Shown here piece after piece: positions 4,595 to 49,075 of a stretch of 64,000 nt of DNA. The translations under genes were made by a program, and so were the position numbers. The stretch is from Pantoea trifolii (lineage in GTDB: Bacteria > Pseudomonadota > Gammaproteobacteria > Enterobacterales > Enterobacteriaceae). Location: the NCBI RefSeq assembly GCF_024506435.1, contig NZ_JANIET010000001.1:2790001-2854000 (forward strand). The letters run 5' to 3'. Position 1 is the first letter of the stretch, and every line of letters begins with the position of its first letter. The notes below the pieces were generated by a model that saw only the letters and a list, made by a program, of their open reading frames with translations, was not told the origin of the DNA and did no database searches.

Positions 4595-6184
4595 ATGAGC
4601 CTGTTAACGGTGAATCATCTGGCGGTGGCCTTTCAGGATCGCCGCGTGGTGGACGACATTTCGCTGCAAATAGATGCCGGCGAAACGCTGGCGCTGGTGG
4701 GCGAATCCGGTTCCGGTAAAAGCGTGACCGCGCTGTCAATCATGCGCTTATTGCCGCAGCCGCCGGTCAACTATCCGCAAGGCGAAATCCTGTTTAACGG
4801 CCAGGATATTTTGCAGGCCAGCGAACGCGCCATGCGCGGGCTGCGTGGCAACCAAATGGCGATGATTTTTCAGGAGCCGATGGTGTCGCTCAATCCGCTG
4901 CATAACGTGGAAAAGCAGCTGTATGAGGTGCTGTCGGTGCATCGCGGGATGCGGCGCGAAGCCGCGCGGGGCGAAATGCTCAGCTGCCTGGATCGCGTCG
5001 GCATTCGTAACGCGGCATCGCGTTTGCAGGATTTTCCACACCAGCTTTCCGGCGGTGAGCGACAGCGCGTGATGATCGCCATGGCGCTGCTGACGCAGCC
5101 GAAGCTGCTGATCGCCGATGAACCGACCACCGCGCTGGATGTCACGGTGCAGGCACAGATTCTGCAATTGCTGCGCGAACTGCAGCGAGAACTTAACATG
5201 GGCATGCTGTTCATCACCCATAACCTGAATATTGTGCGTCAGCTGGCGCACAGCGTCACAGTGATGAGAAATGGCCGCAGTGTGGAACACAATCGCTGCG
5301 ATTTGCTGTTTAGCCAGCCGCAGCAGCCCTACACGCGCGAGCTGATCGCCGCCGAGCCGGATGGTCAACCGGTGCCGCTGCAGGATGCTAAACCGCTGTT
5401 GCAGGTGAAGAATCTGCAGGTTGGTTTCCCGATCCGGCGTGGATTGCTGCGTCGCACCGTGGCAGAGACGCTGGCGCTCAAGGATCTTAGCTTTACGCTA
5501 CGGCGTGGCGAAAGCCTGGGATTGGTCGGCGAATCGGGTTCGGGTAAAAGTACTACGGGCCTGGCGCTGCTGCGCTTAATCACCGCGCGCGGTGAGATCT
5601 GGTTTGAGGATCAGCCGCTGCATCAGCTATCGCCAAAGCAGTTATTGCCGCTGCGCCAGCGCATTCAGGTGGTGTTTCAGGATCCCAATTCCTCGCTCAA
5701 TCCGCGCATGACGGTGCAACAGGTGATTGCAGAAGGCTTAGCAGTGCATCGTCCGCAACTCAGTGCTGCCGAGCAGGAAGCCCGGGTGATTGCGGTGATG
5801 CAGGAAGTGGGGCTCGATGCCGACAGCCGTTTACGCTATCCGGCGGAGTTTTCCGGCGGTCAGCGTCAGCGTATCGCCATCGCCCGTGCGTTGATCCTGG
5901 AGCCGCAGCTGATTGTACTGGATGAACCCACCTCGTCACTGGACCGCTCGGTGCAGAAGCAAATTCTGACCTTACTGCGTCGTTTGCAGCAGCAGCATCA
6001 GCTCGCCTATCTGTTTATCAGTCATGATTTGCAGGTGGTACGCGCGCTCTGCCATCAGCTGGTTGTGCTGCGTCAGGGCGAAGTGGTGGAACAAGGTGAT
6101 TGCGAAGCGTTGTTTAACGCACCAGCAGCCGATTACACGCGGCAGCTACTGGCGTCAGCGCAGGGAAAAGATCTGAGTCAGTGA
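4595..6184 (+). CDS. yejF: ABC transporter ATPase YejF (tandem nucleotide-binding domains)
   Basis: Energises the YejABEF peptide/microcin C importer from the cytoplasmic side. 529 residues hold two ABC ATPase domains in one chain, replacing the separate D and F subunits of Opp/Dpp systems. Domain 1 has Walker A GESGSGKS at 36-43, signature LSGGERQR near 151 and Walker B LLIADEPT. Domain 2 has Walker A near 312-319, signature FSGGQRQR near 419 and LIVLDEPTSSLD. Both sites look catalytically complete. The start codon directly follows the yejE stop. The 3' end overlaps the convergent yejG by 7 bp, leaving no room for a separate terminator between them. Confidence 0.96.
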   Translation: MSLLTVNHLAVAFQDRRVVDDISLQIDAGETLALVGESGSGKSVTALSIMRLLPQPPVNYPQGEILFNGQDILQASERAMRGLRGNQMAMIFQEPMVSLNPLHNVEKQLYEVLSVHRGMRREAARGEMLSCLDRVGIRNAASRLQDFPHQLSGGERQRVMIAMALLTQPKLLIADEPTTALDVTVQAQILQLLRELQRELNMGMLFITHNLNIVRQLAHSVTVMRNGRSVEHNRCDLLFSQPQQPYTRELIAAEPDGQPVPLQDAKPLLQVKNLQVGFPIRRGLLRRTVAETLALKDLSFTLRRGESLGLVGESGSGKSTTGLALLRLITARGEIWFEDQPLHQLSPKQLLPLRQRIQVVFQDPNSSLNPRMTVQQVIAEGLAVHRPQLSAAEQEARVIAVMQEVGLDADSRLRYPAEFSGGQRQRIAIARALILEPQLIVLDEPTSSLDRSVQKQILTLLRRLQQQHQLAYLFISHDLQVVRALCHQLVVLRQGEVVEQGDCEALFNAPAADYTRQLLASAQGKDLSQ

Positions 6185-6504
6185 CCATCGAAGGTTTCGG
6201 CGATAGCGACACCCTGATTTTTCAGGCAGCAGTTGGTGGCGCTTTCGTCATCGCGTTGAATCAGCAGACAAGGTTGCCCTTCACACTGGGCGATTTTGCA
6301 CTCGACCTGAATCTGCGCCAACGTTTCTTTCAGCTGGTGCAGAATTTCCAGCGCCGGATGGCCATCGTGGCTCAGCAGGCGCAGCACCACTAAATCTTCG
6401 GCATGCACGCCATTCGCCGCTTCCTGACGCTCAATTTCTCCTGCATGTTCAAGCGACCAGCGATAATGTTGTGGCAAGCGATGCACAACGGAAAGTTGCA
6501 GCAT
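6178..6504 (-). CDS. yejG: YejG family protein of unknown function
   Basis: Small soluble protein without a defined role; E. coli yejG sits at the same place downstream of yejF. The start MLQLSVVHRLPQHYRW matches E. coli MTSLQLSIVHRLPQNYRW, and the end (CEGQPCLLIQRDDE, then LKNQGVAIAE) is equally close. I place the start at 6504. A longer frame could begin at 6540, but a GGGGG tract upstream of 6504 is a better ribosome site and the homology begins there. The product is 108 residues. It is convergent with yejF, with 7 bp of overlap. Several cysteines in the C-terminal half are conserved with E. coli. No function is assigned. Confidence 0.9.
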   Translation of the reverse strand: MLQLSVVHRLPQHYRWSLEHAGEIERQEAANGVHAEDLVVLRLLSHDGHPALEILHQLKETLAQIQVECKIAQCEGQPCLLIQRDDESATNCCLKNQGVAIAETFDGH

Positions 6505-6887
6505 AGATATACGGCCCCCAGAGACGTTAACTTTATTCACGACGACGGCACAACGTGGTGAATCCCAACCTGGTTAGCTCAGAAAACCCACTCAGTCTGC
6601 CTTCTCGTTTTCAGTACAAAGCATGTAGCCAATTTATAATTTGCGAGGCTTCTCACATTTATGCCTATGTTTACCGTGTTCGGCTGCGGTTAACAATCAT
6701 TTTAGACGCAATCTCGTTACTTTTTTATCTCTAAATTTTCACATAACGGAAACATTAAGCATAACGAATGAATGGGGATTAGCGAGTGAGGGGGAGAAAT
6801 TTAAGAGAGGCCAGGTCGCCATGAATGGCGACCCTACGGAAAGATTCAGGATATGTAGGGCCGCCATTCATGGTGACCTTGGGGATA
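6505..6887. other. Intergenic region between yejG and bcr
   Basis: About 380 bp. The part next to yejG holds its upstream region. The middle is AT-rich with no convincing coding potential; an open frame on the plus strand here has no homology I recognise and runs into bcr antisense. The part next to bcr carries two REP-like palindromes in opposite orientation (annotated separately), which lie downstream of bcr. Confidence 0.6.
6814..6878. repeat. Inverted pair of REP-like palindromes downstream of bcr
   Basis: Copy one (6814-6838) reads GGTCGCC, ATGAAT, GGCGACC, then the asymmetric tail CTACG: two 7-bp arms with a 6-nt loop. Copy two (6855-6878) is the same unit in reverse orientation with two changes. 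The head-to-head pair could fold into one larger hairpin, as BIME-type REP arrays do. Three further copies occur at 52790, 52870 and 57101, all outside genes. The position after the bcr stop suits a 3' mRNA-stabilising or terminating role, which is inference. Confidence 0.8.
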
Positions 6888-18472: not shown

Positions 18473-18549
18473 CGGCACGTAGCGCAGCCTGGTAGCGCAC
18501 GGTCATGGGGTGTCCGGGGTCGGAGGTTCAAATCCTCTCGTGCCGACCA
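18473..18549 (+). tRNA. proL: tRNA-Pro, anticodon GGG
   Basis: 77 nt with encoded CCA end. Acceptor stem CGGCACG pairs with CGTGCCG. The D-loop has AGCCTGGTAGC, the anticodon loop reads ATGGGGT with GGG at positions 34-36, and the T-arm is GGAGG-TTCAAAT-CCTCT. It reads CCC codons. It is almost identical to E. coli proL and in the same place after yejM. Its 3' end is the attachment site of the genomic island that follows; the integrated copy keeps the tRNA intact. Confidence 0.97.
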
Positions 18550-18551
18550 AA
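18527..18551 (+). other. attL: left 25-bp attachment repeat in the tRNA-Pro 3' end
   Basis: The 25 bases covering the T-loop, the 3' acceptor strand, CCA and two following A are repeated exactly at 24901-24925. The match stops on both sides immediately outside the 25 bp. This marks site-specific integration of the island by a tRNA-targeting integrase. Confidence 0.92.
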
Positions 18552-18680
18552 TTCTCCCAACGTTTTGTCTGGTGAAGTCCAGAGAGAACCATAAAAAACA
18601 GTTTAAACAGTAGGTTGTTGAAACCTGCTGTTTTTCTGTTGTCTAGTGAAATCCTGATTGATACAGTGGAATCCACCTGA

Positions 18681-18731
18681 TTTAGGCATACTCATGGGCA
18701 TACGTTTCTAAGACTGCCTTTTGATATGCCT
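18681..18731. repeat. Probable integrase arm-type sites, left end of island
   Basis: AGGCATA at 18684-18690 and GGGCATA at 18696-18702 are spaced 12 bp; the inverted TATGCCT lies at 18725-18731. The same heptamer pair with the same 12-bp spacing occurs at 24827-24845 near the right att repeat. Role inferred from symmetry with the att sites. Confidence 0.55.
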
Positions 18732-18763
18732 AAGCCTTCCGAGGAACAGAATGGAGACTGCTT

Positions 18764-19423
18764 ATGGCAAGACAGACCAAGCCCTTAAACAATACCGAAG
18801 TGAAGAACGCCAAAGCTGCTGAACGAGCATTGGTTCTTTATGACGGGGATGGTCTGGAACTGCAGGTAACTCCCGGAGGCTCAAAACTCTGGCGGTTTCG
18901 TTATTACAAACCCTTCACTCGTAAACGGGCCATGATCAGCTTTGGTTCATACCCTTCCGTTTCGCTTTCCGAAGCTCGCCAAAATCGTGAATCAGCCCGC
19001 GCTCTTCTCAGCAAAGACGTTGACCCTCAAGAGCATAAAAAGGCAGAGCAACTTCGTCAGAAGAGTGTGAGTGAAAGTACGTTTGAAAAAGTTGCAGCTG
19101 AGTGGTTTAAGACCAAAGAGGCAGCAGGATTAACAACTCACACTCTTAACGATATCTGGCGTTCAATGAGTAAATATGTGTTCCCACATATTGGCTCTAT
19201 GCCTATTTCCAACATTACAGCCCAACAGTTCATCGGATCCCTTAGCCCAACTCATGCTGCAGGCAGACTCGAAACTGTTAAAAGGTTGAGTCAGCGTATT
19301 AATGAGGTTATGGATTACGCTTTGAATTCTGGCTTAGTCACTTCAAACCCAGCGACAAAAATCGGTAAGACGTTCCATAAGCCAAAAGTAAAACATCGCC
19401 CCGCCCTCTTACCTGAACTGTAG
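18764..19423 (+). pseudogene. int: Tyrosine recombinase (P4-type island integrase), truncated by IS911
   Basis: Would insert and excise the island at tRNA-Pro. The first ~90 residues are the arm-binding domain of P4-type integrases (DGDGLELQVTPGGSKLWRFRY, MISFGSYPSVSLSEAR). The core-binding SAM-like domain follows (EWFKTKEAAGLTTHTLNDIW to about 205). Residue 219 is the last: the stop TAG is supplied by the terminal repeat of IS911. Full-length relatives have about 400 residues, so the whole catalytic domain with its R-H-R-Y residues is missing. No downstream continuation exists on the far side of the IS, so the remainder was deleted rather than only split. ATG at 18764 is preceded by GGAATGGAGA. 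Confidence 0.9.
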
Positions 19424-19426
19424 TGG

Positions 19427-20595
<1,169 letters not shown>

Positions 20596-20662
20596 TCGGA
20601 CACCTGTGTTGTTCTGAGGTGAGCATATCACCTCTGTTCAGGTGGCCAAATTCAGTAAACCA

Positions 20663-21343
20663 CTACAACAAGAGTCTCGAAAGCCTGTCATCAGAGAGAC
20701 GTAACTCGTTCATTTTTGCCCATAAAAGCACGTCAAGCATGGCTATAAGCCTGTAAGTAATAATCTTCTTTATCGTCCCATATCCGAAGCGTACCGCAAC
20801 TGACTCGTCTGCTTTTATACCTTTCACGCTCCGCCATTGCGGAAGTGCTGTTTTGATTGACTCTGCAATTTCGTCGTCTGTACCACTGGCAAGATCGATT
20901 TCCAAAAGAACTGTTTTCTCACATATTGCTGACATGACAGTTGAAACATAAGCATCGTGTTGAGGCAGGTTAACACCATATTCATCACTTCCCTGCTTCC
21001 ATGAGATGAGATTAACTCTCAATGCGGTTATGCTGAGTTCAGCAAGCCTTGTTATATCCGTAATAAAGATATGAGGGGGACTCTGAAGGGGGTGGTCATC
21101 TTCCATGTAGTCGAGTTGTTCAGATCTGAATAACATGGGCTTTCCGTTGAAGATCTGTCTCATGTATCCCCCAAGCCCGATCTTTTCTTCTTCAGTAGGC
21201 CATGGCTTAAAAAGCAGCGCTCTTGCCCAAAGCTCGTGGTAAAGGCAGTTTAGAGTTATTTCTTCAAATCTTTTGTAGTTTTCAATGTCCAGCCATGTCT
21301 TGACGGCTTTGGTGTCTTCTATTGACCAGTTTTTCATGCCCAT
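20663..21343 (-). CDS. DUF6387-like protein, 3' end truncated by IS911
   Basis: 226 residues as it stands. The N-terminal TWLDIENYKRFEEITL, the YHELWARALLF segment and the C-terminal GTIKKIITYRLIAMLDVLLWAK pattern are what I know from DUF6387 proteins, which are common next to island integrases. This assignment is from memory of family patterns and only moderately sure. The stop TAG is the first codon inside the IS911 end, so the natural C-terminus (probably a few to some tens of residues) is lost. It starts 29 nt after the end of the hamB remainder on the same strand, so it belongs to the same transcription unit. No membrane segment or catalytic motif is visible. Function unknown. Confidence 0.6.
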   Translation of the reverse strand: MGMKNWSIEDTKAVKTWLDIENYKRFEEITLNCLYHELWARALLFKPWPTEEEKIGLGGYMRQIFNGKPMLFRSEQLDYMEDDHPLQSPPHIFITDITRLAELSITALRVNLISWKQGSDEYGVNLPQHDAYVSTVMSAICEKTVLLEIDLASGTDDEIAESIKTALPQWRSVKGIKADESVAVRFGYGTIKKIITYRLIAMLDVLLWAKMNELRLSDDRLSRLLL

Positions 21344-21372
21344 GCCCTATTATTTTATGCTTTTCAAATACA

Positions 21373-21819
21373 TTAGACATATTTACAAAATATTTTATAC
21401 TCAATTTCACTCAACTTGGATTTAATCTGTCCTCTGATTTTATTAAACACCTCTTGGACTTCTTGAAAATTTTCACAAGAAATAAAAAAATCTGAAAGTT
21501 TACCAATCATCTCCCTGGGTATCCCAGCATCCCTCAAGATTATTTCGTGATTCTCATTAGTTCCATATTCGAGTAATGCAACTATATAATCTAAACTCAG
21601 TGTTTTTTTGTTCTTTTCAATTGCAACAAAATTAAATATAGCCTCGAAAGCTTTGAAGTAACGGGGCCAAATAAACTCAAAGTATTTTGTTATTGTGTCA
21701 AATGTAAGTCTAATCCTTGCATTTTCATTTGGACTTAAATACCTCATTGTGTTGGAATTTAGCAATGCATGGAAAGTTGGTTGTTGATATATATAGTACT
21801 TAGTTAAATCCAGAAGAAT
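21373..21819 (-). pseudogene. hamB: C-terminal part of hamB in the -1 frame
   Basis: This frame carries the missing end of the HamB helicase. Read from the A-run at 21819 it continues ILLDLTKYYIYQQPTFHAL and then about 130 residues to KIFCKYV. It includes YFEFIWPRYFKAFEAI and LLEYGTNE-LRDAGIPRE, a pattern usual at the C-terminus of such Ski2-like helicases. There is no good ribosome site or ATG for independent translation; the first start available is TTG at 21765. Adding one A to the six-A tract joins it to the upstream frame as one 748-residue protein. It may be a true mutation, a recoding site or a sequencing error. Confidence 0.8.
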
Positions 21820-23618
21820 TTTTTACCATACTCACTGTTCTCATTATTGAACCTCTGTCCTTTATTACTTTCAGTGAATAAGTAATCATAAATCACACTT
21901 AAGATAGCTTCTGTTTTATCTAATGTAGGTCTCTGTGAGGTGTAGTGATAAAGTTCAAAATTGCTGATATTTCTCAAATGATTAATCAGCGCTATCTGGC
22001 CTGTTATGCTTACGAACTTATTTTCCTTCAATAATGCAAGAGGAATGTTTTGTTCGTTTAAAGACTGTACAAATTTTATAAAGTCTGCCTTCTGTTCATC
22101 TGTAATGTCGCGTTCTTCTAATTGTACTAAAGTCTCCATATTTGGCGTCGAGCTATCAACAAATTCTATTTCAACATTGGTAACTTTATCTAATTCCTTC
22201 TCTACTTTTTCAAAATAGAACACCCTTCCAAGAAAGTGACGCATAAACCTTCCTGCGCGTCCCTCAATGTTTCTTCTATCTAAATTAGCTAATGGCTCGC
22301 CATTTCCAATCTTTAAGTCATATAAAATAACATTCTTTGCTGTTGAATTTACTCCTTCAGTCAAAGACGTTGTGCAAAAAAGATATTTCAAATCTCCTTC
22401 GGTTGAGTTGAATTCATCTATAATTAGATCTTGAATATGTCTTGGCATCGCCCCATGATGGAATGCAACACCTTTTTTTAAACAATCATTTAGAGACCAT
22501 GTTTTAGAAATATTTTGCTCCAAATAATTTATCAACTCTTGGTTGAACGGAACCAACGGTAAATCTTCTAAAAACTTCTCGGCCAGCTGTTCTACATATC
22601 TTTTCTGATAGCGATAAATTAAAAACTTACCGTCCACATTACTTCCCCGTGTAACTCTTAACAAGTTTTTGTATTTATCACCTATTATTTTTAGAGCAAC
22701 ACCTTCAACTTCCTTAGTCCCCCTTGAGTTTATGTAGTCAAACTCATAGTAATCCTTTTGTACTATCTCAAGGTCATATTTCAACATTGTAATATTGAAT
22801 TTTTCGCGAAACCTCTTGCTAAAATCATTTATGTAAGGGCCAATAAGATATAGATCTGCACCACTTTTTGTTAATCTATATAGTACATCTGCAAAAACCC
22901 TGAATCTTTCATCATTGAGTTTGTAGTCTGCTTTGTAAACTTCATCCATTACAAAAAAATCTATTTCCAGCAAGGGGTTATCCTGAATAAGTACGCTCAT
23001 ACGCTCAGGAGTTAGAACAAGAATATATTTCTTCTCATTGCTTATTTTTATTTTTGATGACTTTGATACAAGGTATTCAGTATTGAATTCATTTTTGAAG
23101 TCATGATATGCCTCTGATAACAATGATATGGTTGGCATTATTATCACGACTACTTTGTAGCTATTATGCGATATGATTTCTCTAATAATCCTAGTTTTAC
23201 CGAAAGAAGTAGGAGCACTTACTATTAAACGTTTGTTCTTTTGAAATGAATTAAATATTTCTTTTTGAGGTTTCGTTAAGGTTGTTTCTGATTTCGAACT
23301 TGTATAAAACCCCCTCAAAAATATATCCTGTGGAGACACTTCTGGATTGTAGTTTATTTCATTTCGTGAAAGCATATCATCATACATAAAGATTCTGGAC
23401 TTAACGATGCAATCATGAAGTAACTGCTGAATCATTTTATCTTTAATCTTTTTATCCGCTATGAAGCATATTAACTTCACACATAAATTATAATTCTCTG
23501 AGTTATCCAATTCTCTATAAATTCTAATGAGTGCATGTTCTATTCTTTCAAAATCAGGTTGACCTTTATCTTTAAATAGTTCACAGAGTTCAATTTCGAT
23601 ATCGTAAATATTTTCCAT
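21804..23618 (-). CDS. hamB: Hachiman HamB superfamily 2 helicase (frame ends early)
   Basis: Helicase component of a Hachiman-type defence locus, expected to sense or process foreign DNA together with the HamA nuclease. 604 residues in this frame. Motif I APTSFGKT at 135-142, DEVY box at 225-228, then a second RecA-like domain with FHHGAMPRHIQDLI, CTTSLTEGVNSTAKNVI and motif VI NIEGRAGR, as in Ski2-like helicases. The frame stops at GKKFFWI because of a six-A tract (21819-21824); with seven A it would read GKKILLDLTK and continue 148 residues to 21373, giving 748 residues, close to other HamB proteins. AAGGA precedes the ATG, 10 nt after the hamA stop. The helicase core is complete, so partial function is possible. 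Very AT-rich. Confidence 0.85.
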   Translation of the reverse strand: MENIYDIEIELCELFKDKGQPDFERIEHALIRIYRELDNSENYNLCVKLICFIADKKIKDKMIQQLLHDCIVKSRIFMYDDMLSRNEINYNPEVSPQDIFLRGFYTSSKSETTLTKPQKEIFNSFQKNKRLIVSAPTSFGKTRIIREIISHNSYKVVVIIMPTISLLSEAYHDFKNEFNTEYLVSKSSKIKISNEKKYILVLTPERMSVLIQDNPLLEIDFFVMDEVYKADYKLNDERFRVFADVLYRLTKSGADLYLIGPYINDFSKRFREKFNITMLKYDLEIVQKDYYEFDYINSRGTKEVEGVALKIIGDKYKNLLRVTRGSNVDGKFLIYRYQKRYVEQLAEKFLEDLPLVPFNQELINYLEQNISKTWSLNDCLKKGVAFHHGAMPRHIQDLIIDEFNSTEGDLKYLFCTTSLTEGVNSTAKNVILYDLKIGNGEPLANLDRRNIEGRAGRFMRHFLGRVFYFEKVEKELDKVTNVEIEFVDSSTPNMETLVQLEERDITDEQKADFIKFVQSLNEQNIPLALLKENKFVSITGQIALINHLRNISNFELYHYTSQRPTLDKTEAILSVIYDYLFTESNKGQRFNNENSEYGKKFFWI

Positions 23619-23628
23619 AATATATCCT

Positions 23629-24510
23629 TCAGAACCTCATCGCCATTTCTACCATTTCGATTTTTTCTTTTAATTCTGTTACATTTTCGAAAGGGAAAAG
23701 AAAAAACACCAACCTAATATTTTTATCTTCAGGCCATGTCTTTTTATAAATGGTATCAAAATGAGTTTGTAATTCTTTTTTGACCTCGGAAATAAACGGT
23801 TCACTTTTTATAGATGTATTTTTATTTCCATTGCATGAAGATATATATTTACTATCGTAAGTAAGCAATACCGGAATGGCTATATCGATTGAATCCAGTG
23901 ATTTACCACCATCCACATAACTTTTTAACTTATAATATGCATTTTCATCTAATAATTTATTGATTTCAATCTCTCCCCCAAGCAACCTTAATTCACTCTT
24001 AATTCTATTTTTATCACCTATATGCTCTGTGAGTGATTCCAGTGCTGACGAGATTGCATTACTGAGCGTTTTATGAAACTTAGCTTCTCCTAACCATAAA
24101 GTAACTTTTTCTCCATCTAATGAAAAATGAGCGCAGTCAAACCCTTTGATTTGTTCTCTTGTTGTTGATCTTAAACGAGCTTTTGTAACAAATTTAGGGA
24201 CATCATAAAAGATACTCAGAATCAGATATAAAAGAAGCTCACCATAATCTCCTTTTGACTGCTTTCTTGCATCGGAGATACGAGTGAAACTCCTTCGATG
24301 CAACTCTGATATTTCTAGTTCTTCCAGTTCACTTTGTGTTAATGAAAAGTAAGGTACTACATCCCTTATGAGACCAACGAGATCATTTTGCCTATAGACT
24401 CCTTCTTCAAAGTCTAAAGTGAATGTACTGTCGTGAATCCCGCAGCCCGCAAGAGGGATTTCATACTTGAAAATCTGATTTTTTGTCCTTAATTTCAACA
24501 TGTTATCCAT
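23629..24510 (-). CDS. hamA: Hachiman HamA (DUF1837) PD-(D/E)XK-type nuclease
   Basis: Effector of the Hachiman anti-phage system. 293 residues, the size expected for HamA. The C-terminal-type DUF1837 core shows a restriction-like nuclease pattern: Glu91 in KGDYGELLLYLIL, Asp125 in GFDCAHF, and Glu142/Lys144 in LWLGEAKF. Together these form E...D...ExK. In characterised Hachiman systems HamA and the helicase HamB form a complex, and HamA degrades DNA when released. hamB follows by 10 nt on the same strand. GGGAAG lies upstream of the ATG. The gene lies at the right end of the tRNA-Pro island and is very AT-rich, pointing to transfer. DUF1837 also occurs in other two-gene loci, so the neighbour helicase is what makes the Hachiman reading firm. 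Confidence 0.85.
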   Translation of the reverse strand: MDNMLKLRTKNQIFKYEIPLAGCGIHDSTFTLDFEEGVYRQNDLVGLIRDVVPYFSLTQSELEELEISELHRRSFTRISDARKQSKGDYGELLLYLILSIFYDVPKFVTKARLRSTTREQIKGFDCAHFSLDGEKVTLWLGEAKFHKTLSNAISSALESLTEHIGDKNRIKSELRLLGGEIEINKLLDENAYYKLKSYVDGGKSLDSIDIAIPVLLTYDSKYISSCNGNKNTSIKSEPFISEVKKELQTHFDTIYKKTWPEDKNIRLVFFLFPFENVTELKEKIEMVEMAMRF

Positions 24511-24900
24511 GCTTACTTCCCTTGATAAACTATATGCTATATTTGTATATGCATAAGAATTACTTGATTGATTAAGATTTTATCAATATCAGATGTAATG
24601 ACAAGGCGAAGAAATTCCCTACAACCACATTAAAGCCAAATCTAATTTTACATCCTTTAATTTCAATGAGTTAAAATGTAAACATAACGGTCCTTTTTTT
24701 ACCAATCTTCCATTAATAAATTCTCTTTATTTTCCTTATGTTAATCGATTACTTCGTGTTGGTTTTATGACCAACTTTTAAAGCATGCTTTTCATATTAT
24801 CGGCAACAATATTATAAAAAATATTTAGGCATACCATTAGGCATATCAAGTAAGACAATAATTAATTAAATTCATATAAAACAGTCAGTTAAAGATAAAA
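24511..24900. other. AT-rich right end of the island, upstream of hamA
   Basis: About 390 bp without a gene. It should contain the hamA promoter (several TATA-like hexamers lie at 24530-24560 on the minus strand, none decisive) and ends with integrase arm-type repeats just before attR. No coding potential or RNA gene was recognised. Confidence 0.55.
24824..24846. repeat. Probable integrase arm-type sites, right end of island
   Basis: AGGCATA at 24827-24833 and again at 24839-24845, spaced 12 bp, mirror the pair at 18684-18702 beside attL. The TTTAGGCATAC context is shared by both ends. Confidence 0.55.
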
Positions 24901-24925
24901 TTCAAATCCTCTCGTGCCGACCAAA
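24901..24925 (+). other. attR: right 25-bp attachment repeat (copy of the tRNA-Pro 3' end)
   Basis: Exact 25-bp copy of 18527-18551, starting TTCAAATCCT and ending GACCAAA. It is followed after 5 bp by a strong terminator that was probably the original tRNA-Pro terminator before integration. Confidence 0.92.
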
Positions 24926-24976: not shown

Positions 24977-25402
24977 CTAAACGATTCGATTTCCGTGCTG
25001 ATCGATCACCTTCTCACCATCTTCTTTGATGAATGCTCCCTGCTGCGCATCGGGAAGAATATCAAGTACCGTTTCTGAAGGCCGACATAAGCGTGTTCCC
25101 AGCGGAGATACGACGATCGGGCGGTTAATCAGGATGGGATAGTTCAACATCGCCTCGATGAGTTGCTCATCATTAAATCTCTCCTCAGCCAAACCCAGTT
25201 GCTCAAAAGGTTCGACATTTTTGCGCAGCAAGGAGCGCACGCTGATACCCATCGCACTGATCAACGCTTTGAGCTTTTCACGACTGGGCGGCGTTTCAAG
25301 ATAGAGAATAATGGTCGGCTCAATGCCGCTGTTGCGAATGAACGCCAGCGTGTTGCGCGATGTACCGCAGGCAGGATTGTGGTAAATGGTGATGTCGGTC
25401 AT
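24977..25402 (-). CDS. arsC: Glutaredoxin-dependent arsenate reductase ArsC
   Basis: Reduces arsenate to arsenite with glutathione/glutaredoxin so that ArsB can export it. 141 residues from ATG at 25402 (E. coli plasmid and chromosomal ArsC: 141). The catalytic cysteine is in HNPACGTSRNT near residue 12; the downstream Arg cluster (LLRKN, INRPI, GTRLCRPSE) that binds arsenate is present. An ATG 12 nt upstream is less likely because GAGAG is positioned for the inner one. Last gene of arsRBC, followed by a strong terminator. Confidence 0.96.
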   Translation of the reverse strand: MTDITIYHNPACGTSRNTLAFIRNSGIEPTIILYLETPPSREKLKALISAMGISVRSLLRKNVEPFEQLGLAEERFNDEQLIEAMLNYPILINRPIVVSPLGTRLCRPSETVLDILPDAQQGAFIKEDGEKVIDQHGNRIV

Positions 25403-25415
25403 GATTGCTCTCATT

Positions 25416-26705
25416 TTAATGGGACAGTGTCAGGCGCAAGGCCAACGCACTCAGGGTGACCAGCAGCACGGGCAAGGTCATCACGATCCCCACGCGAAAG
25501 TAATAACCCCAGCTAATGTTGATGTTCTTCTGATCGAGCACATGCAGCCATAACAACGTGGCGAGACTACCAATCGGCGTGATTTTTGGTCCAAGGTCGC
25601 AACCAATCACATTGGCATAAATCATCGCTTCCTTTATCACGCCCTGCGCGGTGCTGGCATCAATCGACAGCGCACCAATCAGTACCGTCGGCATATTGTT
25701 CATCACTGATGAAAGCAGCGCCGTCACCAAACCGGTACCCAAGGTGGCAGCCCATAAACCCTGGCTGGCAAAGTAGTTGAGCAAGTCAGTAAGATGTTGC
25801 GTCAGCCCGGCATTTTTGAGGCCATAAACCACCAGATACATGCCCAGCGAGAAAATCACGATCTGCCAGGGTGCGCCGCGTAACACATTAGCGGTGTTAA
25901 TTGCATGACCTCTTTTGGCAACGATAAATAGAATTAACGCGCCCAATGCGGCGATAGCACTAACCGGAATACCCAGCGGCTCCAGCAGGAAAAAACCCAC
26001 TAATAGCAGCAACAGCACCAGCCAACCGGCTTTGAAAGTTGCGGGATCTTTGATGGCTTCTGCTGGCAGTTTAAGACGTGAAACCTCATAGCTGGCGGGT
26101 ATCTCTTTGCGGAAGAAAAGGTGCAGCACCACCAGCGTTGCGATGATGGCGGCAATATCAACCGGAACCATCACCGCCGCATAATCGATGAATCCCAGTT
26201 TGAAGAAATCAGCGGAAACGATGTTAACCAGATTGGAGACGATCAGCGGCAAACTTGCGGTATCGGCAATAAATCCGGCTGCCATGACAAAAGCCAGCGT
26301 TGCGCCTTTACTGAAGCCTAGCGCCAGCAGCATGGCGATAACGATCGGCGTCAATATCAGAGCCGCACCGTCATTGGCGAAAAGCGCAGCAACACACGCG
26401 CCGAGTAACACGATATAGGTGAACAGCCGCCGCCCTCGCCCCCTTCCCCAACGCGCGACATGCAAAGCGCACCACTCAAAAAAACCGGATTCGTCCAGCA
26501 ACAAGCTGATGATAATGACGGCGATAAAAGCAGCCGTCGCATTCCAGACGATATGCCAGACAGCGGGAATATCGTTTAACTGGATAACGCCGGTCACCAG
26601 CGCCAATAAAGCCCCTATCGTTGCCGTCCAGCCAATGCTCAGGCCGCGCGGCTGCCAGATGACAAATACCATGGTCAAAACAAATATTGCGCCTGCCAGA
26701 AACAT
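25416..26705 (-). CDS. arsB: Arsenite efflux transporter ArsB
   Basis: Inner-membrane As(III)/Sb(III)-proton antiporter. 429 residues, exactly the E. coli length, with about 12 hydrophobic segments. Family features include the start [36 protein letters not shown] and the late [13 protein letters not shown]. It lies between arsR (41 nt upstream) and arsC (13 nt downstream), one operon. No arsA ATPase gene is present, so it works as a secondary carrier. Confidence 0.96.
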
Positions 26706-26746
26706 CGCGCCTCCAATGCATTCGAAAAATCAAATGTGTTTAATGA

Positions 26747-27067
26747 TTATTCACAACCCGTAGCGGCGGCGTTCTTCAGCGACTCACGCACGTCCTCACG
26801 TTGGCTATTCCAGGCCGTATCGATAATCGATGCGGCCCAGGCCGGCATATGCGGAGAGAGACGATAGTGAATCCACTTACCTTCACGTCGATCCACAATC
26901 AGCTCAGCATCGCGCAGCAAGGCAATGTGGCGTGAAATCTTTGGCTGTGATTGTTGGGTAACGGCGCAGAGATCGCAGACACACAACTCTCCGGCCTCTC
27001 GCAATAATAAAACGATCGTCGTACGCGTTTCGTCGGCAAGCAGTTTGAAAAGTTGAACAGGAAGCAT
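26747..27067 (-). CDS. arsR: Arsenite-responsive repressor ArsR
   Basis: ArsR/SmtB winged-helix repressor that leaves its operator when As(III) binds. 106 residues. The As(III) site is the ELCVCDLC motif (three cysteines) at the start of the DNA-recognition helix region, followed by QSQPKISRHIALLRDAELIVDRREGKW. It is slightly shorter at the C-terminus than E. coli ArsR (117) and lacks its cysteine-bearing tail. First gene of the operon; a perfect palindrome that is probably its operator lies just upstream at 27095. Confidence 0.95.
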   Translation of the reverse strand: MLPVQLFKLLADETRTTIVLLLREAGELCVCDLCAVTQQSQPKISRHIALLRDAELIVDRREGKWIHYRLSPHMPAWAASIIDTAWNSQREDVRESLKNAAATGCE

Positions 27068-46218: not shown

Positions 46219-48057
46219 TTACGCCCCTTCCCTGCCCTTTCTGACGCGTTCCGCATACACCGCCAGCGTACTTTTCAGCACATCCAGTGTAACCGGCTTC
46301 GACAAACAGTTATCCATGCCCGCATCCATACAGCGCTGCTTCTCTTCCGCTAACGCATTGGCCGTGACGCCAATCACCGGGAAAGTATGTCCTAACTGAC
46401 GCAGACGTTGTGTCAGACGATAACCATCCATGTTCGGCATGTTCACATCGCTCAGTACGATATCAATATGGTTGCGGCTCAGCACGTTCAGCGCATCCAC
46501 GCCGTCCTGCGCGGTTTTGGTCTGATATCCCACGGTGCCGAGCTGTTCTGACAGCAGCATGCGGTTGATCGGATGGTCATCAACAATCAGCACGATGATA
46601 TCTTCGAAGGTCGCAGCTGCTTTTGCCGCGGTTAACGGCAGCGGCGTGGCGGTTTCGCTATTGATGTTGATGCGGTAGATGCGGCCGAGCAGCTGCGGCA
46701 GATCGTGCAGCATCGCGCTGCTCTGGATCCATTGACCCGGCGCGGTTTCGTGCGGCATATCGATGTGCTGACCACAGATACGAATATGCGCGCGTCCGCT
46801 TTGCGCAGCGAGCTCATCGTGATCGCTAATGATCACATCATCCGCTGCCGCCTGACCGCGATAATACGCCACCTGAATGCCCTGCTGTTGCAGCAGACGC
46901 AGCAGGAAGCTGGCGAGGTATTCATTACGCATATCCAGCCAGATGGCTTTTTCCTGCAAGCCGTCCAGCAGCGGTGGTGCCGCCATCTGACCGGAATAGA
47001 TCGGAATGCGCACGATAAACTGACTGCCCATGCCCGGTTCGGAATCAACTTCGATATCGCCGTCCATCATGTTGATCAGCTTTTCACAGATCGCAAGCCC
47101 TAAGCCGGTTCCCTGGAAGTTACGTTGCACGCCCGAACCTACCTGGAAGAACGGATCGAACAGGCGCGTCACCTCTTTGGCCGGAATACCGACGCCGGTA
47201 TCACGCACGCGGAACGCCAGATATCCCTCTTTGACGTAAGCATGCAAGATGATACAGCCGGTATGCGTGAATTTGATGGCGTTGTTCAGCAGGTTAGATA
47301 TCACCTGCTGCAGGCGCATGGCATCGCCATCCAGGGTCAGCGGCACATCGTTTTCGATAAACACGTACAGCGTCAGGCGTTTGCGCACCACCAGCGAGAG
47401 ATAGTTGCTGGCAATGTGGTTGACCACTTCACGCGGCGAGAAAGGATGGGGCTCAATTTTCAGCTGTTCGGATTCAATCTTCGAGAAGTCGAGGATGTCG
47501 CTGATGATCTTCAGCAGCAGGCTCGACGAGTTGTTCATCGCCGTCACCAGTGAATCGACGCCTTTCGGCAGCACTTTGGTTTGCAGCAGATCGAGGTTAC
47601 CGATAATGCCGTACAGCGGCGTGCGCAGTTCGTGGCTGACGGTGGCAAGGAACATTGATTTCGACTGGCTGGCCTGCTCGGCCGAGTGCGCCATCTCCTG
47701 CAGCGACTGCTCCATACGCACGCGCGCCGAGACATCGACCAGCACGCAAATCGCCACGTTTTCATTGCGATAACGCGAATGCACAAAGCTGATTTGCAGG
47801 TTAGTGTTGCTGCCGGTCAGCACATCGACAAAGTTAACCTGCTGACCACCGATGATTTCATTCAGACGCTGACGATCTTCCTGCGTCAGCAGCGTCAGAT
47901 AGTTATGTGCCAGCTCGTTACTCAGAATGTTGGTGCCGTCGCTGGTGCGCAGAATACAGATGCCGACCGGCGCCGAGGCGACAATTTTGCGGTTGAACTG
48001 TTCGTGCTCCTCCAGTCGATGCGCATTCTCTTCAGCCGGCAGGAACATGCGGCGCTC
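46219..48057 (-). pseudogene. rcsC: rcsC 3' part: kinase core and receiver, out of frame with its N-terminus
   Basis: About 610 residues carrying the cytoplasmic half of RcsC. The linker LEEHEQFNRKIVASAPVGICIL and PAS-like region lead to the phospho-accepting His in VSHELRTPLYG. The ATPase motifs (NLLNNAIKFT, GTGLGLAICEKL) follow, then the RcsC-ABL domain and the receiver with Asp in VLSDVNMPNMDG. The sequence ERR-MFLPAEE upstream matches the E. coli linker, but it is reached from the N-terminal frame only if one base is removed from the six-base run at 48058-48063. No good ribosome site precedes the internal ATG at 48048. All catalytic motifs are intact, so damage is confined to the single frameshift. 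Confidence 0.88.
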
Positions 48058-49075
48058 AAAAAACCCACGCCAGCGTGAACAAAATTACCGCCGTAAAGAT
48101 ATTAAGCAGCAGCGCGTTAATCAGCATCAGCTTGAGTTGATCCATCAACACGTCGGTGGAAAGCGACCACACCACATTGAGATTGGAAGGTGGCAGCGGC
48201 TTCTTCAGCACCAGCTGGCGATAGCTGTCGAGATAGCCGAACCAGGTGCTGTTGTCCGGCAGATCGTCAAGCGAGTAGCCCGGCCCGCCGCGACGTGAAC
48301 TGAGCAGCGGACGGTAATTTTCATCGGTGATGGTGGCCACCAGCGGCAAACCGCCCGGCTGAATGAACTCATCCAGGCGGATATTCTGCTCCACGCCCAG
48401 CAGCGCCTGCAGTTTGTTCGCCACATACACCGGCATCACCATATAGAAGTTGCCGACGCCCGGCTGCGCGCTGCTGGTGATCCAGTACATCGGCTGGCGG
48501 CGCTCTTCTTCATTGCCGTTGCGATAGTGCAGCACGCGTTCACGCAGCGCTTTCAGGCTACGTTCACGATCGACTGAATTGTTGCTGCCGATGGTGAAAT
48601 CGGCCAGACACTGGTTCTCGCCACCGATGAAGAACACGCGGTTCAATTCATAGGCAGAGGCAAAATTGCTTTTCCAGTAATTGATGTAGTAGCTGAGCGA
48701 ATCCAGCGAGTTGCGCCAGGTGTTGCTCATTGAGGTGCAGTCGCCATCGGAAAACAGCGGCGTGAACTGCGGCAGCGCACCTTTGCCCGGCGGCAAACCG
48801 TTGAGCACATCCAGACCATTAGCGCTGCTGCTCAGGCGATTTTCGGTGATGTATTTCAGCTCGCGCATCACATCCGCCGAGTGGCGTACGTACCACTCAG
48901 CCTGACCGTAATTGGTGGCAAACTCCTGACGCACCGCGTTCTCTTTCTCGTGCAGCACGTTGATGATGTAGAAAGTGGTCAGCAGCGCACCCAGCGCCCA
49001 GAGCAGCAACGCCAGCGCACGAAATAGATAGCGCGAAATTCGAAGCGTAGTGCGAAAGGAGACAAGATATTTCAA
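48056..49075 (-). pseudogene. rcsC: rcsC 5' part: membrane sensor domain, frame ends early
   Basis: 339 residues holding the N-terminal membrane helix (about 18-40) and periplasmic sensor domain of RcsC, closely following E. coli (MKYLxSFRTTL, SNTWRxSL, GVEQxIR). The second membrane helix begins (LILFTLAWVF) and then TGA ends the frame where E. coli continues into the kinase. The cause is six T on the coding strand where five restore ...WVFERRMFLPAEE. Expected full length is about 950 residues. The site TTT TGA resembles the RF2 +1 recoding context, but no SD-like spacing supports that. A real mutation or a homopolymer sequencing error are the main options. Confidence 0.88.

Follow-up and report, generated by a model that had tools for sequence, protein, structure and literature searches.

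A probably decayed Hachiman locus with an interrupted hamB gene on a tRNA-Pro island of Pantoea trifolii

Hachiman is a bacterial phage-defence system in which two proteins, HamA and HamB, act together. In the Hachiman of E. coli ECOR31, HamB was shown to survey DNA, take free 3' single-stranded ends, move, and activate the D-ExK nuclease of HamA (PMC12278908). Once activated, HamA clears phage and host DNA (PMC12278908). The structural paper describes Hachiman expression as mildly toxic, with a risk of autoimmunity. AbpAB is a different two-gene system with a DUF1837 protein. Here, a locus of this kind is described in a 64,000-nucleotide stretch of the Pantoea trifolii genome (contig NZ_JANIET010000001.1, positions 2,790,001 to 2,854,000), referred to as the window; the genome that holds it is G000. 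The hamA gene of this locus is open and its hamB gene is split by a frame change. It is probably an ordinary Hachiman locus that arrived on a P4-type integrase island inserted at a tRNA-Pro gene and has recently decayed.

The identity of the locus as Hachiman is supported by strong profile matches of both predicted proteins. An earlier note, made from the sequence alone, had read the locus as a Hachiman module, and the PADLOC profile search that it asked for returned HamA1 and HamB1 as the top models. HamA matched HamA1 (PDLC00171) over positions 3-285 of 286 (E 1.6e-112) and the Pfam HamA family (E 5.5e-36), and the HamB1 match is spread over two reading frames (Table 1). We take the "1" in these model names to stand for type I Hachiman. 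The two genes are adjacent, run in the same direction and lie 10 bases apart. The residues E91, D125, E142 and K144, which the note had picked out in the 293-amino-acid (aa) DUF1837 protein, were invariant in 46 aligned sequences; the D-ExK motif is kept and HamA is predicted to have nuclease activity. A search of the HamA sequence against the Protein Data Bank (PDB) found nothing, and the structural match came from the predicted fold, which is nearest to the solved folds of HamA and 8zue_A (residues 256-537 of the latter align with 2-291 of the model).

The helicase gene is where the locus departs from a working system. The note had described an adjacent helicase, and the HamB1 match bears this out, but it is not one open gene: the frame changes in a short run of one base. 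As encoded, HamB ends at codon 604, compared with about 748 in relatives (724-834 aa in 110 of 120 listed). The part that is cut off is a C-terminal helical region, which corresponds in alignment to the end of AbpB in its solved structure and contains 15 of the 93 invariant columns. A working Hachiman needs a single open HamB frame, and the split weakens the claim of function, not that of descent. The claim of a working module is not supported, given the frame change, the halved integrase and the apparent loss of island DNA next to an insertion sequence (IS) described below. In the proposed course of events, a P4-type integrase island would have carried hamA and hamB into the tRNA-Pro gene, and the later break in hamB would have removed the C-terminal helical region while leaving HamA intact. 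The truncated HamB would then have lost its function and HamA would be silent. As judged from the sequence, the copy is probably switched off with its nuclease gene intact.

Table 1. Features of the tRNA-Pro island and their positions in the window
Feature	Position	Strand	Evidence
tRNA-Pro (GGG), integration site	18473..18549	+	ARAGORN; Rfam RF00005
att repeat, left copy (3' end of tRNA-Pro)	18527..18551	+	repeat search; single copy at empty site in G395, G439
Possible arm-type integrase site, left	18680..18702	+	repeat D3, 83% identity over 23 nt
P4-type tyrosine integrase, N-terminal half, 219 aa	18764..19423	+	Pfam Arm-DNA-bind_3, Phage_int_M; PRK09692 1-217/413
IS3-family element, transposase open reading frames 20293-20631 + 19427-20266	19419..20667	-	sequence and repeat searches
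DUF6387 gene, C-terminus lost at IS border, 226 aa	20663..21343	-	Pfam PF19924 2-220/258
hamB 3' part, other reading frame, 130 aa	21373..21765	-	PADLOC PDLC00184 618-738/738, E 4.1e-44
hamB, first 604 codons: N-terminal helices, both helicase domains, part of C-terminal region	21804..23618	-	PADLOC PDLC00184 12-595/738, E 1.5e-227; Pfam DEAD, Helicase_C
hamA, DUF1837 nuclease, 293 aa, open	23629..24510	-	PADLOC PDLC00171; Pfam PF08878; alignment; fold match
Possible arm-type integrase site, right	24823..24845	+	repeat D3
att repeat, right copy	24901..24925	+	repeat search

The borders of the island agree with the earlier note, which had placed the segment between two copies of the tRNA-Pro 3' end. 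The attachment (att) repeat is exact over 25 bp and extends to a match of 27/28. The segment is AT-rich, as had been noted: the GC content is 0.30-0.37 in 500-base windows starting at 21250-24500, and 0.46-0.59 in the flanks. The note had also proposed that related strains be compared for presence or absence, and G421 was found to carry the island, with G395 and G439 having an empty site. In both of the latter, the two island flanks align and are joined at one 28-base att copy (read directly in G395), so the segment is a true, clean tRNA insertion. When 30 tRNA loci were inspected, 15 were readable, the remainder being without the probe string in that orientation. These 15 comprised the window's own locus, 12 with a terminator directly after the tRNA, and two (G443 and G441) with other DNA, so that the site seems to be a repeated target. 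That DNA (L197 and L036, from G441 and G443) is unrelated, and a tyrosine-integrase-like open reading frame (ORF) was seen by eye in L197.

The tRNA 3'-end repeat and the clean empty site in relatives are those of a P4-type island, but its integrase is incomplete. As the note had recognized, it is a remnant; it stops at position 217 of 413, without the catalytic half, and the island thus cannot leave by its own integrase. Two features that the note did not list, together with the hamB split, are the IS3 element and the truncated DUF6387 gene. The element sits between the integrase fragment and the DUF6387 gene, many listed relatives of which are about 281-285 aa long. Three identical copies of the element are found in the genome, and a 3-bp target duplication flanks the other two but not the island copy, which fits an IS-associated deletion of adjoining DNA. 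The island is indeed small, as the words "minimal island cargo" in the note imply, but its size appears to stem at least partly from this deletion.

Among 60 other genomes of the genus (61 including G000), G421 alone has a close hamB copy (97% over codons 1-601, with one internal stop). Its island lies at the same tRNA-Pro and includes hamA, hamB, DUF6387 and the integrase, and the cargo half is 94% identical in DNA. Here too hamA is open (293 aa), and hamB has an in-frame stop after codon 473, beyond which its frame stays open throughout. In G421 the integrase and DUF6387 genes are broken in ways unlike those of the window, and other transposase ORFs lie between them (by eye). Four further genomes of the genus have distant helicases (28-30% identity); in one of these, G442, a distant HamB-like ORF of 661 open codons has an internal stop, and no HamA was matched in the 4.4 kb examined.

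Divergence between the window and G421 was estimated by the Nei-Gojobori method. Synonymous divergence (dS) was 0.09-0.29 in DUF6387, hamA and hamB. The core gene to the left of the tRNA gave 0.63, and the integrase, over its first 88 codons, 0.46. These values make the cargo, and less clearly the integrase, look younger than the split of the hosts. The ratio of nonsynonymous to synonymous divergence (dN/dS) was 0.10 for hamA and 0.05, 0.08 and 0.14 for three parts of hamB; the highest value belongs to the part after the window's break and comes from 7 amino-acid-changing differences. These low ratios suggest that both genes were constrained until recently and that the breaks are recent.

Is hamB decay general among Hachiman loci? 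In an order-level survey of 394 genomes, HamA was found in 24, with 25 matches. Twenty of these loci were fetched, all but that of the window itself and four weak matches. HamB was found at 18 of the 20, and all 18 were single open frames of 706-1186 codons; of the other two loci, one lies at a contig end and the other has a fragmentary HamA. In L137, a HamA fragment of 156 open aa with one internal stop was seen, with no HamB found nearby. In L002-L007, hamB was open in six of six. In a further set of 22 HamB-like loci, 10 also match HamA in the short stretch examined, and hamB was open in all 10; the two sets share at least one genome (G240). Since hamB is open at these loci, the decay appears to belong to this island.

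Several observations weigh against recent decay. An open hamA and low dN/dS also fit a system that still works, and a HamB of 604 aa might retain some activity. Assemblies err in short one-base runs such as the one at the frame change, and in the control HamBs a break outside the profile-matched part could be missed. As a control for frame errors, ORFs of at least 150 aa in G395 were compared with stretches of G000 and the window; 144 had a full-length counterpart (about 167 kb). G000 has a one-base indel in a run in 1 of these 144, at 46219-49075 of the window, and three others have an in-frame stop without an indel. The reverse comparison, of 148 G000 ORFs with G395, flagged eight, five of them with one-base indels, although several may be false ORFs. 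The gene at 46219-49075 (- strand) is sensor-kinase-like; its two ORFs (609 and 339 aa) correspond to a single ORF of 952 aa in G395. The gene order suggests rcsC, and the split is a real mutation or an assembly error.

The alternative that survives best is that of a working Hachiman whose hamB frame change reflects an error of assembly, which is possible but not likely. It draws on the low dN/dS of both genes, on the position of the break in a one-base run, and on the second such indel in a window gene that is open in G395. However, with one such indel in 144 ORFs, the chance of an error within the 2.2-kb hamB is about 1 in 75. Furthermore, the island decays in other ways (integrase and DUF6387), and a stop codon interrupts hamB in G421.

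Did selection rather than chance break hamB? It is conceivable, if doubtful, that hamA is spared on this tRNA-Pro island while selection repeatedly removes the HamB sensor, an armed sensor of genome integrity being a net cost to the host. A related proposal, that HamA is kept for another role, alone or with the truncated HamB, and that hamB loss was selected against self-damage, is improbable. Two different hamB lesions with hamA intact speak for it, as do the reported mild toxicity and a third short HamB (P0089, 375 aa, Cronobacter) that is probably on the same contig as a full-length HamA (P0123). However, hamB, about 2.5 times as long as hamA, is the larger target, and two or three hits confined to it are no surprise. 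Beyond this island, every checked locus of the two partly overlapping control sets that has a HamB beside a HamA match has an open hamB, and hamB deletion ablates defence in ECOR31. With two events and a longer target, decay by itself is no proof of selection.

A mixture of short and full-length HamB, produced by changes in run length or by ribosome or polymerase slippage, is very improbable. The break does lie in a one-base run, and both sides are still open and conserved. However, it is no conserved switch, since the Rahnella gene has an interrupted run, and a pattern search of L003-L007 found no matching site. The G421 stop lies elsewhere and in frame, and the hamB region has six runs of at least six identical bases, so that such runs are common there.

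Recent decay of an ordinary Hachiman locus has consequences for surveys of defence systems. A profile search that sees HamA and a long piece of hamB would score this genome as Hachiman-positive despite its interrupted helicase. Should the lesions reflect selection, the pair of islands would help to gauge what it costs to carry Hachiman, and the two would form a natural record of its autoimmunity-driven disarming.

Other searches concerned the origin of the cargo and the rest of the island. No HamA match was found among 50,697 phage records at E 1e-5, none of seven pattern matches in IMG/VR was confirmed, and the 11 plasmid records that match HamA do so over no more than 80% of the query; a phage or plasmid origin was rejected on these searches. 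A megablast search of the cargo DNA against E. coli genomes gave no match. DUF6387 is not supported as a third Hachiman part, as it occurs elsewhere in the genus without close HamAB (8 places in 7 of the 61 genomes, outside G000 and G421). In one such stretch (L195 of G444), no HamAB was seen by eye among ORFs of at least 100 aa. Its DUF6387 gene (5687-6574) lies about 26 kb from the tRNA-Pro. A displaced copy of the terminator from the tRNA side is nearby, so the gene probably belongs to an insert at this same tRNA. The 23-nt motif pair near the island ends might, as a guess, be integrase arm sites. In an Rfam scan, the tRNA alone passed the cut-off, with a sub-threshold AaHKsRNA82 to the right of the island. 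A promoter scan returned 13 sites, fewer than the 18.1 expected from shuffled sequence, and no promoter is claimed. Directly right of the island (24977-27067) are ORFs that we take to be ArsC-, ArsB- and ArsR-like; the start of this region also adjoins the empty tRNA site in G395.

Among known systems, AbpAB is closest by solved structure, 8zue being the nearest to both models with its chain B named Anti-bacteriophage protein B, but this identity is virtually excluded and was rejected on domain layout. According to its paper, AbpA has an extra N-terminal nuclease and a catalytically inactive HamA-like domain; the window's HamA has neither, as it is 293 aa long, keeps D-ExK and aligns to positions 256-537 of chain A only (presumably AbpA, from the name of chain B), and the top PADLOC hits are Hachiman models. 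The ECOR31 system differs in the larger HamB of its solved structures (1174 aa) and in that the window's hamB frame is broken. The HamAB of Rahnella laticis (L002) has a 71% identical HamA and an open HamB of 744 aa; it is located elsewhere, after an ORF of 503 aa that looks integrase-like by eye. The G421 island differs from that of the window in its hamB lesion, its transposase ORFs and the chromosomal genes to its right. The likeness to Hachiman is that of two adjacent genes in the same direction, with HamA matched almost from end to end (3-285 of 286) and HamB in two pieces that together cover 12-595 and 618-738 of 738 positions.
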